Positions 7,049-31,955 of a stretch of DNA of 37,325 nt are shown piece after piece. Below the pieces are notes generated by a model that was given only the letters and a program-made list of their open reading frames with translations, was not told where the DNA came from and did not search any database. This DNA comes from a virus, in IMG/VR virus record IMGVR_UViG_3300007522_000035, positions 1 through 37,325 of that record. One strand, 5' to 3'. How positions within the stretch are numbered: the first letter of the stretch is position 1; each line of letters opens with the position of its first letter. The position numbers and the translations under genes are program-made.

Positions 7049-7065
7049 AAAACTAAAAACAACAG

Positions 7066-7137
7066 TGGATCGGACAGGAATTGAACCTGCGTCCCCCAGG
7101 TACCACCCGGCGCTCTTCCAGACTGAGCTACCGACCC
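7066..7137 (-). tRNA. tRNA, probable Thr (anticodon GGU), atypical anticodon stem
   Basis: Good acceptor stem (GGGTCGG/CCGATCC, 7 bp with one G-U), TA at positions 8-9, D-stem GCTC/GAGC, and T-arm GCAGG/CCTGT with loop TTCAATT, discriminator A. The region between D- and T-arms is 2 nt shorter than standard. The best fold has a 4-bp anticodon stem (CCGG/CTGG) and 7-nt loop GTGGTAC, which places U33, anticodon GGU and A37 correctly. No CCA is encoded. A 5-bp stem with a 5-nt loop is the alternative, which would be non-functional. Confidence 0.7.
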
Positions 7138-7168
7138 ATTCATAAAAATAAAACCACAGACGATCAGT

Positions 7169-7200
7169 GGACACCCGCCGCTACGAACGGCGTGGTGTCC
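7169..7200 (-). ncRNA. Strong hairpin: 7-bp stem plus 5-bp/7-nt anticodon-like arm
   Basis: GGACACC pairs with GGTGTCC (7 bp). Inside, separated by one bulged A, CGCCG pairs with CGGCG around the loop TTCGTAG. A 7-bp outer stem and a 5-bp stem with a 7-nt loop having U33 and A37 is what remains of a tRNA if D- and T-arms are removed; the loop would read anticodon CGU (Thr). No T-run follows, so it is not a standard terminator. It may be only a stable processing hairpin between the two tRNAs. Confidence 0.55.
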
Positions 7201-7227
7201 TAGCTCTGCCTTGAGGAACAGAACTAT

Positions 7228-7297
7228 TGAATTGCGGCAGAGTCGAACTGCCCCCATTCGAAGTTATGAGCCTCGATGCTCCCACGAGCTGCGCTTC
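7228..7297 (-). tRNA. tRNA-Met-like gene (anticodon CAU), imperfect acceptor
   Basis: Perfect T-arm (GGCAG/CTGCC with loop TTCGACT), and an anticodon arm CGAGG/CTTCG with loop CTCATAA, giving anticodon CAU with U33 and A37. The D-arm is GCTC/GAGC with only a 4-nt loop (GTGG). The acceptor stem (GAAGCGC/GCAATTC) has two mismatched pairs and only one base separates it from the D-stem. The Met/initiator-like loop is clear, but the small D-loop and weak acceptor suggest a degenerate or unusually processed tRNA. No encoded CCA. Confidence 0.55.
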
Positions 7298-7454
7298 ATA
7301 AAAAACCACAGACGATCTGTTTCAATCAACTTCGTTGATCCATGGTTTACGGGACTCTGCCGCCCAATGCAAACGGCAGAAAGCTCATCTGATCTTTAGC
7401 GATGGACTAACAAAGCACAATGGTCCAAAGCATTTCAGAATGTTGCCCGATACT

Positions 7455-21120: not shown

Positions 21121-23403
21121 ATGGTGACTCGTATAGTTGTAGGAATTGCCGGAAGTGGGAAAACCGCATTCGCGATGTCAAGAATCGAGCAGGCCCTTCG
21201 TGAGGGGGTCAGGTGGGATCAAATTGGCTTCGGGAGTTTCAGCCGGGCTGCGTGCCTGGAAGCGGCAGAAAGGGCGTCGAAGATAACTGGGGTATCTTCG
21301 GACAAACTTCAGAAAGAAGGCTTCTTCAGAACCGCTCATTCTGCTAGTCTGAGACTACTTGGTATCAACCCGAAGCTGATTCTGGATCATGACTCTGCTG
21401 ACGGGAAACGATTCCTCACGGAATGTCTCGGATCACAACGAGGCGGTGAGGTGGGGACTCTCGGACACCAAGTTGATAAGGCGATGAGCTGGTTCGATAC
21501 GGAAAGGGCGCGACTGACCCTCCCCCGGCGACCTGCGGCACCTGATTGTCGCGAGGACGGGCTAAAAGAACCAGATACACTCGCACTAGGGTTTGGTACA
21601 CTCGCACTAGAGTTTGCTAAAACAACTAGTGCATGTGGAAAACCCAGCAAAAACAGCCATAAAGGGGATTCCGGTACACTCGCACTAACCTTTATAGAGA
21701 AAACTTTTCAATCAGAAAATATTATTCGAATCCAAGCGCGCAGAAAAATTTATGAAAAGCCTAGTGCGAGTGTATCTTGTAGTGTAAATGAACCCCCTAT
21801 AGGCCATAAAGTCCAGCAAAATCGGCAATTCACGTCCTTACACCCCTTTTTTAATGAAAGTCTAGTGCGAGTGTACCAAAACACTAGTGCGAGTGTATCT
21901 GAAAACACTAGTGCGAGTGTAAACACTAGTGCGAGTGTAAACACTAGTGCGAGTGTAAACGATGAATGTTTGGACATGGTGTACAAATACCAAGCTCACA
22001 AGCGCGAGCATGACAGGTACGACTTCACCGACCTACTCTTCAGGTACGCCGGGATCGGCATAACGAAAGATCTCGAAATCTACTCAACCTACCCAGAAGG
22101 CTCAGTTCCACAGGAAGTGAAGATCTGGTTCTGGGACGAGCATCAGGATACGTCGGTGCTGTTGGACATGGTGACTCAGAGGCTCTCAGAGGACTGTCAG
22201 GACGTTTACATGCTCGGAGATGCATATCAGGCCGTCTACGGATTCAGTGGCTCTGATCACCGCGTTTTCAAGGCGAGGGAGAATGCCGCCAAGGACGAGG
22301 GGAACCGAATCCTCCTGAATAGATCGTGGCGGAATCCGCCACAGGTGTTAGAGTGGGGGGAGTCGGTGCTTCGCGAAGACAAGGCATACGAAGAAAGACA
22401 CCCATTCAGCGAAGTCTGCGACGGCAGCGTAGGAATGATGAGAACAGGACTGTTCCTGGAGAACCTCGAACGGCTCGTGGACACCGACACCCTGATTATC
22501 GCACGGACGTGGTTCGCGCTCGATTCGCTGAAGAGGCGACTGGATCAGATGTGCATTCCCTGGCGGTCATGTCAGGAAGAGCGGAAATCCCGCTGGGAAA
22601 GCCCCGTCAAGATCGCTTATACTTTGACAATGAGAGATCTGAAGGACGGGGCGAAGATCTCAGAGCAGGACTGGAGAAGGGTCACTGATACGCTGGGACA
22701 GAAGTTCGAAGGCAAGGAACTGTTCGAACGTGGCGTCAAAGCCAAGTGGAAGAAGATGTCTTGTTCGGGCGAGAACGTCAAAACGCTGGCGGATCTGAAG
22801 GAATGGGGTGCGACCGAGTGGTTCACTCAGTTCGTCCAGCAGGATAAGTGGCGGCTGGATACGGTGCTGCTGCTGGACGATGCCATCGAGAAGCACGGGA
22901 TCAGAGTCGTGAGGAATCCGGGGATTCGGATCGGTAGCTGTCACAGCGTCAAAGGAATGGAAGCAGAGAATGTTTTCTGTCTGGCGACCAGCTCAGAGCG
23001 GGCGTCGGGCGATGGAATCGACTTCTGGGAGGATCTGTTCCTGAAGTACGTTGCGATCACGCGGGCGAGCCGGCATTTCAGGGTGGTCGTTGACCCAGTG
23101 GACCATGCGAGAGGGAAGCGTCTATTCTTGCCCTGCCCTAAGGGGTTTTGGACTTTCGATGAGGAGTTCGTTGATGTCGGAGTCAGAAATACAGGCGAAG
23201 TTCCTGAAATGGTGTTCGGACAAGGATTGGATCTGGGTGTGCAAATATCCGGGAGGAACCTACGGCAAAGCGGGGACTCCGGACACACTGATGTCAGTGC
23301 TGGGGATCTTCCTGGCCATCGAGTTCAAGACGCAGACAGGGAAGCAGTCGGAGATTCAGAAGTACGAGCAGTTGAAGATTCGTATGAGTGGATCAATATC
23401 TGA
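21121..23403 (+). CDS. UvrD-like superfamily 1 DNA helicase with repeat-filled insertion
   Basis: 760 aa. Walker A GIAGSGKT (residues 8-15), then FGSFSRAACLEAAERA, FFRTAHSASLRLLG, DRYDFTDLLFRYAG, motif II FWDEHQDTS (Asp about 339), GDAYQAVYGFSGS, LNRSWRNPPQVLEWG and a late HSVKGMEAENVF and YVAITRASRHF, the UvrD/Rep order. Between the third and fourth of these, residues about 152-279 are a low-complexity insertion built from DTLALGF-type and NTSASV-type repeats (see the repeat entry). The last ~77 residues overlap the nuclease gene out of frame. Likely a replicative or recombination helicase. Confidence 0.9.
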   Translation: MVTRIVVGIAGSGKTAFAMSRIEQALREGVRWDQIGFGSFSRAACLEAAERASKITGVSSDKLQKEGFFRTAHSASLRLLGINPKLILDHDSADGKRFLTECLGSQRGGEVGTLGHQVDKAMSWFDTERARLTLPRRPAAPDCREDGLKEPDTLALGFGTLALEFAKTTSACGKPSKNSHKGDSGTLALTFIEKTFQSENIIRIQARRKIYEKPSASVSCSVNEPPIGHKVQQNRQFTSLHPFFNESLVRVYQNTSASVSENTSASVNTSASVNTSASVNDECLDMVYKYQAHKREHDRYDFTDLLFRYAGIGITKDLEIYSTYPEGSVPQEVKIWFWDEHQDTSVLLDMVTQRLSEDCQDVYMLGDAYQAVYGFSGSDHRVFKARENAAKDEGNRILLNRSWRNPPQVLEWGESVLREDKAYEERHPFSEVCDGSVGMMRTGLFLENLERLVDTDTLIIARTWFALDSLKRRLDQMCIPWRSCQEERKSRWESPVKIAYTLTMRDLKDGAKISEQDWRRVTDTLGQKFEGKELFERGVKAKWKKMSCSGENVKTLADLKEWGATEWFTQFVQQDKWRLDTVLLLDDAIEKHGIRVVRNPGIRIGSCHSVKGMEAENVFCLATSSERASGDGIDFWEDLFLKYVAITRASRHFRVVVDPVDHARGKRLFLPCPKGFWTFDEEFVDVGVRNTGEVPEMVFGQGLDLGVQISGRNLRQSGDSGHTDVSAGDLPGHRVQDADREAVGDSEVRAVEDSYEWINI
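21576..21957. repeat. Nine copies of a 14-bp motif in opposed orientations inside the helicase gene
   Basis: CTAGTGCGAGTGTA occurs six times on the plus strand (starting 21761, 21862, 21884, 21908, 21926, 21944; the last three exactly 18 bp apart). Its reverse complement occurs at 21576, 21597 (21 bp apart) and 21675, the last lacking its final base. A shortened copy lies at 21625. The minus-oriented copies are all on the left and the plus-oriented on the right, facing across an AT-rich stretch (about 21690-21760). Most spacings keep the helicase frame. Iteron-like; a replication-origin or regulator-binding role is possible. Confidence 0.9.
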
Positions 23404-24062: not shown

Positions 24063-24281
24063 ATGGAGCCCTATTTTCTTGCCGGGTTCGTGGCAGGAAT
24101 CAACATAGCCGATTCAATGAGTGATGTCGGAAACAGGTGGTTCGGTGGTTCGGTGGTTCGGTGGTTCGGTGGTTCGGTGCGAAGAATAAACTTTGCGCCG
24201 CCTCGCGGCCGCGTACCACAATGCGGCCCACAGGCCAGGGTACAACTGCAAATACGTCAATCGTGCAGTTCGACATTATGA
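24063..24281 (+). CDS. Doubtful short ORF crossing an 8-bp tandem repeat
   Basis: An open frame of 72 codons beginning MEPYFLAGFVAGINIADSMSD, which is protein-like for about 25 residues, then reads through the octamer repeat (RWFGGSVVRWFGG) and unconvincing sequence. No ribosome site is evident. Changes in octamer number would shift the frame. It may be a real short gene disrupted by the repeat, or chance. Confidence 0.25.
   Translation: MEPYFLAGFVAGINIADSMSDVGNRWFGGSVVRWFGGSVRRINFAPPRGRVPQCGPQARVQLQIRQSCSSTL
24136..24175 (+). repeat. Tandem repeat, 5 x GGTGGTTC
   Basis: Five perfect consecutive octamers followed by a partial GGT. Lies in the 361-bp interval (24041-24401) without a well-supported gene. 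Because the unit is not a multiple of three, copy-number change would switch reading frame in any gene crossing it. Confidence 0.9.
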
Positions 24282-24903: not shown

Positions 24904-25015
24904 CCGCGCTCCCGCTGCTCGCCGCGCTCCCGCTGCCGAGCCGCGCTCCCGCTGCCGAGCCGCGCTCCCGCTGCTCGCCGCGCTCCCGCTGCCGAGCCGC
25001 GCTCCCGCTGCCGAG
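24904..25015. repeat. GC-rich tandem array, six 18/19-bp units
   Basis: Units CCGCGCTCCCGCTGCTCG (18) and CCGCGCTCCCGCTGCCGAG (19) in the order 18-19-19-18-19-19, i.e. two perfect 56-bp superunits. Starts directly after the HNH-AP2 stop codon. Non-coding as far as I can tell; minus-strand frames through it are pure repeat. Confidence 0.95.
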
Positions 25016-25030
25016 CCATGCCCCAGGATT

Positions 25031-25110
25031 CGGCGCCGAAAAACATCGGCGCCGAAAAACATCGGCGCCGAAAAACATCGGCGCCGAAAAACATCGGCGC
25101 CGAAAAACAT
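25031..25110. repeat. Tandem array, five 16-bp units with GGCGCC palindrome
   Basis: Five perfect copies of CGGCGCCGAAAAACAT. Each contains the palindrome CGGCGCCG followed by an A-tract, which makes regularly phased GC palindromes and A-tracts. The GCGCCGAAAA core is shared with another array at 29100-29191. Confidence 0.95.
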
Positions 25111-25185
25111 CGTCCCGACAACTATTGTTCCGACAACTATCGTCCCGACAACTATTGTTCCGACAACTATTGTTCCGACAACTAT
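25111..25185. repeat. Tandem array, five 15-bp units containing CCGACAACTAT
   Basis: Five 15-bp units alternating CGTCCCGACAACTAT and TGTTCCGACAACTAT, directly abutting the previous array. The CCGACAACTA core also occurs in each of the three leader sequences that follow (just before the ribosome site). Ends 28 bp before the first promoter cassette. Confidence 0.95.
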
Positions 25186-25212
25186 TGTTGCTAGCCGATC
25201 GGATGAGCGGAC

Positions 25213-25316
25213 TATTCTTACAATTCTTCTACATTTAGCATTGACACTATTGACCAGCTTGCTAAGATGACGATATGTCAAGCATTCAACCCGACAACTA
25301 ACAAGGAGAAACGACG
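25213..25316 (+). promoter_or_regulatory. Promoter-leader cassette, copy 1, with 8-codon leader frame
   Basis: TTGACA (25241) and TAAGAT (25263) with a 16-nt spacer, a good sigma70 promoter. The expected +1 coincides with the A of an ATG at 25275 that opens MSSIQPDN-stop (25275-25301), so this frame could be translated leaderless. The ribosome site AAGGAG follows at 25303, nine bases before the gene's ATG. About 100 bp, nearly identical to copies 2 and 3. Confidence 0.85.
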
Positions 25317-25538
25317 ATGGTTCAAGTGCGGTTTATGAATGGAAAAATTACGCGTTTTCCAGGGGCAAAGAGGGCTGCCAAATCTGCAGGTTATCCTGAT
25401 GTTTTCACTTATCTGAGGTCAACAGGGCAGGTCGATTGCTGTTGTGAAGAAATTTCGGACGAAGAAAAAAATGAACAGTTATTAGCAGACCAGGCGAAAA
25501 GACAAATCGCAAGGCATGTTTTACGGCGATTACAATGA
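25317..25538 (+). CDS. Small protein driven by cassette copy 1, 73 aa
   Basis: 73 aa: MVQVRFMNGKITRFPGAKRAAKSAGYPDVFTYLRSTGQVDCCCEEISDEE..., basic N-terminal half, a CCC triplet, acidic then basic helical end. No family recognised. Start fixed by AAGGAG nine bases upstream. It has its own promoter and leader identical to those of two unrelated neighbours. Confidence 0.7.
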   Translation: MVQVRFMNGKITRFPGAKRAAKSAGYPDVFTYLRSTGQVDCCCEEISDEEKNEQLLADQAKRQIARHVLRRLQ

Positions 25539-25601
25539 ATACGTAGTCGTCTAAAAATGGCGACGGAACGAAGTGGCTGAGAGTTAATTTATATTTATTT
25601 T

Positions 25602-25687
25602 ACATTTAGCATTGACACTATTGACCAGCTTGCTAAGATGACGATATGTCAAGCATTCAACCCGACAACTAACAAGGAGAAACGACG
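25602..25687 (+). promoter_or_regulatory. Promoter-leader cassette, copy 2
   Basis: Same TTGACA (25612), TAAGAT (25634), leaderless MSSIQPDN frame (25646-25672), CCGACAACTA and AAGGAG elements as copy 1. The sequence diverges upstream of the TACATTTAGC just before the -35 box, which marks the conserved unit as roughly 85 bp of promoter plus leader. Confidence 0.85.
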
Positions 25688-25903
25688 ATGCAAACAGTAA
25701 CTGCAGAAGAGACTTACATAATGCGCGGTCGAATAGCCACGCGGTGCACCTTAGTAGACATAGAGTCTACGTACAATCGGAACGGAGAACTGGTTAAAAC
25801 AGAGCAAGTCGTGGCTTACGAGTGCCAGGGACAGATAGTACTGTCTAGGTGTCAGGAATCTTCAATACTCCATGGAAACCCTGGGTTTCATACTCCCGGA
25901 TAG
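25688..25903 (+). CDS. Small protein driven by cassette copy 2, 71 aa
   Basis: 71 aa, beta-rich (TYIMRGRIATRCTLVDIESTYNRNGELVKTEQVVAYECQGQIVLSRC) with three Cys. Reads like a small beta-barrel; no family recognised. Unrelated in sequence to the products of copies 1 and 3 although expressed from the same leader. Confidence 0.7.
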   Translation: MQTVTAEETYIMRGRIATRCTLVDIESTYNRNGELVKTEQVVAYECQGQIVLSRCQESSILHGNPGFHTPG

Positions 25904-25904
25904 T

Positions 25905-26008
25905 TATTCTTACAATTCTTCTACATTTAGCATTGACACTATTGACCAGCTTGCTAAGATGACGATATGTCAAGCATTCAACCCGACAACTAACAAGGAG
26001 AAACGAAA
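25905..26008 (+). promoter_or_regulatory. Promoter-leader cassette, copy 3
   Basis: TTGACA (25933), TAAGAT (25955), leaderless MSSIQPDN frame (25967-25993) and AAGGAG, matching copy 1 over about 100 bp including the upstream TTCTTACAATTCTTC stretch that copy 2 lacks. Confidence 0.85.
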
Positions 26009-26224
26009 ATGAACATTAGGGAACTTGCGGACAAGGTACGTGACCTGAAAACAGTGCGACGGGAGGAACTTTCCGAAGGCATGGAATTGAGCCAATTTGA
26101 TGCTTTTGTTGGGGTATTAGAGAGAAGTGGTTTAGTGTGGACGTCTGATAGAATGATTGGATGGAACTTACCAGATAGTTTTCCATGCTCTCAGGAATTC
26201 ATTCTCGCGGAGTCTCAGCGATGA
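26009..26224 (+). CDS. Small helical protein driven by cassette copy 3, 71 aa
   Basis: 71 aa: MNIRELADKVRDLKTVRREELSEGMELSQFDAFVGVLERSGLVWTSDRMIGWNLPD..., possibly a small winged-helix-like fold (helix, helix, short hairpin), but no family is recognised. The stop overlaps the next start (ATGA), so cassette 3 drives at least three genes. Confidence 0.7.
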   Translation: MNIRELADKVRDLKTVRREELSEGMELSQFDAFVGVLERSGLVWTSDRMIGWNLPDSFPCSQEFILAESQR

Positions 26225-26424
26225 AAACAGCAACTGCACAACTGATACTCGACTCAATCAACGTAGCAATCACACAACTAATAAACCTGGCTGAAGTGGA
26301 AAGCACGGAATCTGTGCTTTTACTGACTGAAGCGAGTGCAACAGTTCGCTCATTGGTCGAATACGAACAAAAAATCGAACTTATCGACGAGGCACCTATG
26401 GAACTTATAATAGGGGAAGAATAA
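26221..26424 (+). CDS. Acidic helical protein, 67 aa
   Basis: 67 aa from ATG 26221, GGAG eight bases upstream. Two long helices (QLILDSINVAITQLINLAEVESTESVLLLTEASATVRSLVEYEQKIELI), probably a helical-hairpin dimer. Overlaps both neighbours by 4 and 1 nt. Function unknown. Confidence 0.65.
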   Translation: MKTATAQLILDSINVAITQLINLAEVESTESVLLLTEASATVRSLVEYEQKIELIDEAPMELIIGEE

Positions 26425-26585
26425 TGCAAACCTACCACGTCTGCATTCTGACTCAGGATAATGAAGACTCATATGACACAACCTGGAATTGTGTCAGCGT
26501 AGAAGAATGTCTAAGACTAGCTGACAGTTTGGCCTGGCAGCTATTCGGCGACTTGCCGCACTGGGTCAACGTAGTGGCAGTTTAA
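26424..26585 (+). CDS. Hypothetical protein, 53 aa
   Basis: ATG 26424 overlaps the previous TAA (TAATG) and follows AGGGGAAG. 53 aa: MQTYHVCILTQDNEDSYDTTWNC, then SVEECLRLADSLAWQLFGDLPHWVNVVAV. A short strand, helix, strand protein. A terminator begins at the next base, so it closes the operon. Function unknown. Confidence 0.65.
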   Translation: MQTYHVCILTQDNEDSYDTTWNCVSVEECLRLADSLAWQLFGDLPHWVNVVAV

Positions 26586-26617
26586 CCCGGCGCCAACGTG
26601 GCGCCGGGCATCGTTTT
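26586..26617 (+). terminator. Intrinsic terminator, perfect 9-bp stem
   Basis: CCCGGCGCC, loop AACGT, GGCGCCGGG, then CATCGTTTT. Directly follows the stop of the 53-aa gene. A decayed relative (26937-26964) follows the next gene. Confidence 0.75.
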
Positions 26618-31285: not shown

Positions 31286-31397
31286 CTTTCGCGGCCGTTG
31301 AAGATTGACGGATCGATGAATCTTTGTGATGATGTGGGCATCGCCTGAATGCAAGACAGGCAAAAAGAAATCTTCGGGGGTGACCCTGATTTTTGAA

Positions 31398-31436
31398 CCA
31401 CAGTGTGATGCTTGCATCGTCGCACTGTGGTTTTTT
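31398..31436 (+). terminator. Strong terminator before the second HNH-AP2 gene
   Basis: CCACAGTG/CACTGTGG (8 bp) with an inner GATG/CATC pair, followed by six T residues, 15 nt before the ATG at 31452. Same arrangement as at 19435-19477: terminator, T-run, GTGGAG ribosome site, HNH start. Smaller hairpins precede it around 31347-31390. Confidence 0.85.
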
Positions 31437-31451
31437 CGTGGAGTGTTTGTG

Positions 31452-31955
31452 ATGGCAGAGATCACGCTTGAAGTGGCTAACAGAGAGATCGAATACGATC
31501 CATTGACTGGTCTTGTTCGAAGAAAAGTTATTCGGACTCGCGCAGTTTCCGGGTGGCAGTTGGGAACAGAAGACCACATAAAAGAACATGTCTACCTAAA
31601 GATCAGGATCATGGGTAAATTCATATCCATCCATAGGCTTGCGTTTCTTTTGGAAACGGGAGTAATGCCACCAGCCATGGTCGATCATGAAAATGGAAAC
31701 ACGATGGACAATAAGCGTTCGAACCTGCGGCTGGCCACGCCACAGATGAATCAAAGAAACAAGAAATTCCACAAAAACAACACCTCCGGCGCGATGGGTG
31801 TTAGCTTAGAGCATGGCAGATACAGGGCAAGAATCAGGGATGATGCCGGGATACTGAATGTAGGTTCGTTCGACACGCTGGAAGAAGCCGCCATCGCACG
31901 TAAAGCGGCAGAGATCCACTATGGATACCACCCGAACCACGGAAGGAAATCCTGA
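31452..31955 (+). CDS. HNH endonuclease with C-terminal AP2 domain
   Basis: 167 aa from ATG 31452. HNH: IHRLAFLLETGVMPPAMVDHENGNTMDNKRSNLRLAT with His61, Asp78-His79, Asn87 and Asn91; AP2-type domain from about residue 112 (SGAMGVSLEHGRYRARIRDDAGILNVGSFDTLEEAAIAR). An upstream extension of 42 codons exists but spans the terminator and is not used. It sits between the early operon and the terminase, with a TGATG overlap onto the terminase, a classic homing-endonuclease insertion point. Confidence 0.9.
   Translation: MAEITLEVANREIEYDPLTGLVRRKVIRTRAVSGWQLGTEDHIKEHVYLKIRIMGKFISIHRLAFLLETGVMPPAMVDHENGNTMDNKRSNLRLATPQMNQRNKKFHKNNTSGAMGVSLEHGRYRARIRDDAGILNVGSFDTLEEAAIARKAAEIHYGYHPNHGRKS

Follow-up and report, generated by a model that had tools for sequence, protein, structure and literature searches.

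Three near-identical copies of a predicted promoter and ribosome-binding module at the starts of unrelated small genes in a tailed-phage genome

Why do three small phage genes without recognisable similarity to one another begin behind almost the same stretch of DNA? The question arises in the window analysed here, the complete linear IMG/VR record IMGVR_UViG_3300007522_000035 (37,325 bases), which belongs to a tailed phage. This phage has a terminase of T4 type and a portal with a lambda-type match, and it further carries UvrD-like and SNF2-like helicases, a Prim-Pol and two HNH genes. The three copies lie between the end of an HNH gene (24902) and a terminator-like hairpin (26586-26608). A preliminary description of this DNA had reported near-identical copies starting at 25213, 25602 and 25905, and we find an 85-nt block (TACATTTAGC...AAACGA) repeated exactly three times, at 25230-25314, 25601-25685 and 25922-26006. 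The start of 25602 given for copy 2 is right for the exact block, and similarity reaches back to about 25584. Copies 1 and 3 are identical across 102 nt, while copy 2 has four differing positions just upstream of the block. The copies are arranged head to tail at spacings of 371 and 321 nt, and every block stops 2 nt short of the start codon of a small ORF. Chance is excluded as the origin of the repeat.

25213-25316, plus strand: cassette copy 1 (core 25230-25314; -35 at 25241-25246; -10 at 25263-25268, with TGC before it)
25275-25301, plus strand: mini-frame of copy 1 (MSSIQPDN and stop), beginning at the predicted +1
25303-25308, plus strand: Shine-Dalgarno AAGGAG of copy 1, 8 nt before the ATG at 25317
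25584-25687, plus strand: cassette copy 2 (core 25601-25685; promoter 25612-25639; mini-frame 25646-25672; Shine-Dalgarno 25674-25679)
25905-26008, plus strand: cassette copy 3 (core 25922-26006; promoter 25933-25960; mini-frame 25967-25993; Shine-Dalgarno 25995-26000)

Each copy reads, in order, TTGACA, 16 nt ending in TGC, TAAGAT, GACGAT, the mini-frame (ATG TCA AGC ATT CAA CCC GAC AAC TAA in 3/3 copies), a single C, AAGGAG, 8 nt and the ATG of the gene. The arrangement first described, with TTGACA, 16 nt and TAAGAT followed by the 8-codon frame, AAGGAG and a gene, is exact in all three copies; the extended -10 motif TGC, which precedes TAAGAT in every copy, was absent from that description. 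Promoters matching at least 10/12 positions and carrying TGn occur three times in all on the two strands of the 37-kb window, every time in a cassette, compared with a mean of 0.2 expected from first-order Markov shuffles of the window. The block holds a predicted strong sigma70-type promoter, on the assumption that the host recognises this consensus. Within the window, AAGGAGAAA is found in the three cassettes and nowhere else. Counted from the predicted +1, the 5'UTR is 42 nt long and includes AAGGAG, and its folding is no better than that of shuffled sequences (z 0.55, 1.47 and -0.51), indicating an unstructured leader. No convincing terminator-like site was found within or between the copies, the sole strong one being after g5, and the leader gave no match to Rfam or to known riboregulators. 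Two other readings of the leader were rejected: a coding remnant (open frame SIDTIDQLAKMTICQAFNPTTNKEKRR), for which no homologue was found, and masking of the Shine-Dalgarno by UUCUUCU in read-through RNA, which was hinted at by the copy-1 fold but has its pairing bases altered in copy 2 and in another assembly.

That the copies might be an assembly duplication, a possibility raised in the preliminary description, is excluded because a second, independent assembly of the same virus, IMGVR_UViG_3300032435_000618 (99.9% identity to the window across 15.7 kb), has all three copies in the same order and at the same spacing. A third assembly, IMGVR_UViG_3300007519_000670, stops just upstream of copy 3, inside g2; short-read assemblies often end near repeats. 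Copy 1 of the second assembly differs from that of the window at 25226, 25229 and 25236, and the first two positions are in the copy-2 state, which is suggestive of recombination (conversion) between copies. Since the copies are recently duplicated or homogenised by recombination, their identity to one another is uninformative on selection for the mini-frame. The claim that selection has kept the control unit is likewise not sustained, the copies being too recent or too homogenised to reveal selection.

Downstream of the copies lie five ORFs and the hairpin.

25317-25538, plus strand: g1, 73 aa, no family match; low-confidence AF2 model, mixed beta/alpha, pLDDT 66
25688-25903, plus strand: g2, 71 aa, weak match to phrog_28041 (E 4.3e-6), a family with no function assigned
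26009-26224, plus strand: g3, 71 aa, AF2 pLDDT 72, H-H-H-wing order
26221-26424, plus strand: g4, downstream in the g3-g4-g5 unit, whose ORFs overlap or abut
26424-26585, plus strand: g5, downstream in the same unit
26586-26608, plus strand: terminator-like hairpin closing the g3-g4-g5 unit, fold z -2.75

Pairwise comparison of the g1, g2 and g3 products by BLASTP gave no similarity, even at E 100, in agreement with the original view that the three proteins (73, 71 and 71 aa) are unrelated. No homologues were found for g1 and g3, and g2 also gave a match to Polaribacter phages at E 0.07. Foldseek matches for g3 include MarR/ROK/MotA winged helices, all weak (E at least 0.4); g3 might, on this model, possibly be a small winged-helix DNA-binding protein. 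No defence families were found among g1-g5. ORF length, Shine-Dalgarno and position point to g1 and g3 as candidate genes, and finding three ORFs of 71 codons or more, every one starting at a Shine-Dalgarno, would be improbable by chance (an estimated ~3% each at even composition). The phage codon-bias score is near 0 for g1-g3 versus about 0.15 for g4, g6 and g7, a flat profile that might fit newcomers or poorly supported genes.

We consider it likely that the repeat serves to express accessory genes, as a module homogenised by recombination and situated in a hypervariable slot of the tailed-phage genome. The module would consist of a host sigma70-type promoter and a 42-nt unstructured 5'UTR with a strong Shine-Dalgarno, copied in front of three small accessory genes; recent duplication, or recombination among the copies, would have kept it identical. 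At each copy, host polymerase would initiate at the mini-frame ATG or close to it, and ribosomes would load at AAGGAG to give the g1, g2 or g3 product. Transcription begun at copies 1 and 2 would meet no convincing terminator before copy 3 and would continue to the hairpin after g5, which would place g3-g5 under three stacked promoters. The shared module would also provide a homology patch for the gain, loss or exchange of neighbouring accessory genes. What is directly observed is the repeat, the way it ends at the start codons, a consensus promoter and Shine-Dalgarno, ORFs that are unrelated and a slot that varies in relatives; transcription start, promoter activity, expression timing and gene shuffling are what we infer.

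Most probably, the mini-frame came along incidentally with the ancestral leader. Its ATG coincides with the +1 predicted from the -10 spacing; among random 44-mers from the window, 0.6% carry an ATG with an in-frame stop at that exact position by chance alone, and 1.7% do so when three positions are allowed. This placement at the apparent +1 is suggestive, yet it is a single event picked after the fact. It could be taken to favour a leaderless leader peptide, in which ribosomes initiate on the 5' AUG, translate the 8 codons, stop 15 nt before the gene start and either couple to g1-g3 or sense translation, and the stop and Shine-Dalgarno are indeed near enough for coupling. We regard this as unlikely, however: one ancestral sequence is counted three times without independent conservation, no diverged homologue in which to test conservation of the frame was found, and the Shine-Dalgarno is already strong and exposed. 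The leader also has no hairpin, anti-terminator, terminator, attenuator, Rfam match or regulatory run of one amino acid's codons, and the proposal that the mini-frame or its tail acts as a translation or stalling sensor accordingly finds no support. Less probable still is a functional leaderless 8-codon frame, translated by 70S ribosomes, that gates the downstream accessory genes; if true, the phage would carry a portable leaderless-translation switch placed before newly acquired genes.

About as unlikely as the leader peptide is a third reading, that the repeat is a DNA-level element at the promoters, such as an operator bound by a phage regulator (repressor or activator), or a set of replication or recombination repeats. 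The identity does cover the spacer and ~10 nt upstream of the -35, TTAGCA-N19-TGCTAA and two ATTGAC direct repeats flank or overlap the hexamers, and the ESAS of cluster K phages combine a promoter with an inverted repeat (PMC11373665). But chance alone would be expected to supply a 6-bp inverted repeat in 85 nt, one of the arms is altered in IMGVR_UViG_3300032435_000618 (25236 T to A), no copy lies outside gene starts, and recent copying suffices to account for the identity. Tandem duplication of an entire leader-plus-gene unit, with only the proteins diverging afterwards, is a history that the like ORF lengths (73, 71 and 71 aa) and head-to-tail spacing (371 and 321 nt) might suggest. It is less likely again, given that g1-g3 have no BLASTP similarity, that g1 and g3 differ in predicted secondary structure (low confidence), and that identical leaders beside unrecognisable genes need extreme rate differences or continual conversion.

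To return to the expression module, exact and relaxed patterns of the leader hit nothing else in IMG/VR apart from two further assemblies of this virus, and the matches in INPHARED and PLSDB were all short and weak and are read here as chance. A GTDB match inside a Prevotella frame reading like gyrA had nothing else in common with the leader and was also judged chance. Among nine related records, several being fragments, none has the leader (0/9); relatives found by the terminase profile search have 77, 72 and 55% identity. The check proposed at the outset, a search for the leader before other genes in related phages, therefore gave no instance among the nine relatives, IMG/VR, INPHARED, PLSDB and GTDB. 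Of the portable expression cassette envisaged there, the control unit at the starts of unrelated genes in a variable slot holds, whereas mobility between genomes is conjecture, no phage having been found in these collections with the leader before different genes.

The cassettes occupy a slot between TerS and conserved genes whose content varies among relatives; the TerS gene is a putative one, labelled by position and a common C-terminal motif (ILPPNGSE/LLPSNNTES), without a family match. Synteny with G004, a 60-kb relative whose terminase is 55% identical, runs through UvrD, the TerS-like gene, variable genes, g7, GP88, TerL and the portal, and the TerS-g7 stretch of G004 holds different genes with neither the cassette nor such a repeat. 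G009 (IMGVR_UViG_3300047457_001216, 57 kb) has small minus-strand genes after its TerS-like gene, and in the slot equivalent to that of the cassettes it carries four copies of an unrelated hairpin-plus-Shine-Dalgarno module before different small genes.

About 56400, 55580, 55300 and 54860 in G009 (locus L038), minus strand: the four modules, intergenic

Each consists of TGACCCCCC, a GC-rich hairpin, ACCCTTTGTTCTGGAG (CTGGAG) and a start codon, and the hairpin CCCGGGGCGTGTGCCCCGGG has an identical CCCGGGGC stem in 3/4 copies. Comparison of the window, G009 and G004 thus reveals unrelated start-associated modules in the slot of two phages and none in that of a third. The window and G009, a phage of the same lineage, fill one slot with different modules, suggesting that selection at such slots is for expression modules that come ready-made and not for a particular sequence. 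From 32021 on, a close relative, L014, has 94% identity; it has no HNH gene ahead of its terminase, the N-terminal half of which is diverged (31326-31955 versus L014 1-500); this difference possibly reflects a homing-endonuclease-linked exchange.

Gene-start repeats of a similar type are already known in other phages. Cluster K mycobacteriophages have SAS, repeated ribosome-binding motifs at gene starts, about half with an upstream ESAS (PMC3203893), later recognised as containing SigA-like promoters (PMC11373665), and similar start motifs occur in Microbacterium cluster EF phages (PMC7302621). These are short conserved elements in 11-19 copies, the ESAS being 46-47 bp, and their function is described as unresolved (PMC3203893, PMC11373665, PMC7302621). 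Like them, the window has a repeated Shine-Dalgarno-bearing motif directly at the starts of unrelated non-structural genes, and its sigma70-type promoter parallels the SigA-like promoter of ESAS. Unlike them, it has three near-identical copies of 85-102 nt with a mini-frame, and where ESAS have an imperfect inverted repeat of ~17 bp, the arms here are 6 bp only, one being changed in another assembly. The 13-bp SAS consensus, GGGATAGGAGCCC or GGGAAAGGACCCC, gave 0 matches near start codons with up to 2 mismatches allowed.

The PeSLs of T4-type phages are reportedly host-type promoter units that recur among the small accessory genes of hypervariable regions, and are said (Arbiol 2010, Comeau 2014) to have been proposed as mediators of gene shuffling. 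They pair an early promoter with a stem-loop; the name, promoter early stem-loop cassettes, is used in PMC4503421. The window is similar in repeating a host-type promoter between accessory genes of a variable region, early timing being a feature of the PeSLs; it differs in that its repeat has no stem-loop terminator and was not found before different genes in related genomes (nine records, several of them fragments). Cluster O mycobacteriophages have predicted leaderless SigA promoters (PMC4351075), and in the window module, too, the predicted +1 is a start codon; in cluster O, however, the frame is the structural gene, whereas here it is 8 codons ahead of a gene with its own Shine-Dalgarno. 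Unlike leader-peptide attenuators, the leader has no alternative hairpins or terminator. Because the sequence and structure that define SAS/ESAS and PeSLs were not found, the module is, on its sequence, classed with repeated start-associated expression modules in general and with no named family. It represents a clean promoter-to-ribosome-binding-site unit copied whole before unrelated accessory genes, outside the mycobacterial, Microbacterium and T4 phages.

Several further features of the genome were observed. Two tRNA genes, Thr(GGT) and Met(CAT), lie on the minus strand at 7065-7298. The UvrD-like helicase gene has internal tandem repeats at 21576-21960 (CACTAGTGCGAGTGTAAA units, encoding NTSASV), which sit where similarity to G004 and G009 breaks. 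An octamer array, GGTGGTTC x5.5, is found at 24136-24179; arrays of this sort occur in planctomycete genomes, which might hint at the host. Three minisatellites with units of 19, 16 and 15 nt follow one another at 24904-25189. The 16-nt unit differs in copy number between assemblies (one more in IMGVR_UViG_3300032435_000618), and its array (25029-25112), read on the minus strand, forms a chain of terminator-like hairpins (TCGGCGCCGA-TGTTTTT).

25115-25189, plus strand: 15-nt array CCGACAACTATTGTT x5, directly upstream of cassette copy 1

The 11-mer CCCGACAACTA is common to this 15-nt array and to the mini-frame tail of the cassette (25290-25300). Such sharing has an estimated chance of ~0.2%, and the array may have been seeded by a copy of the leader.
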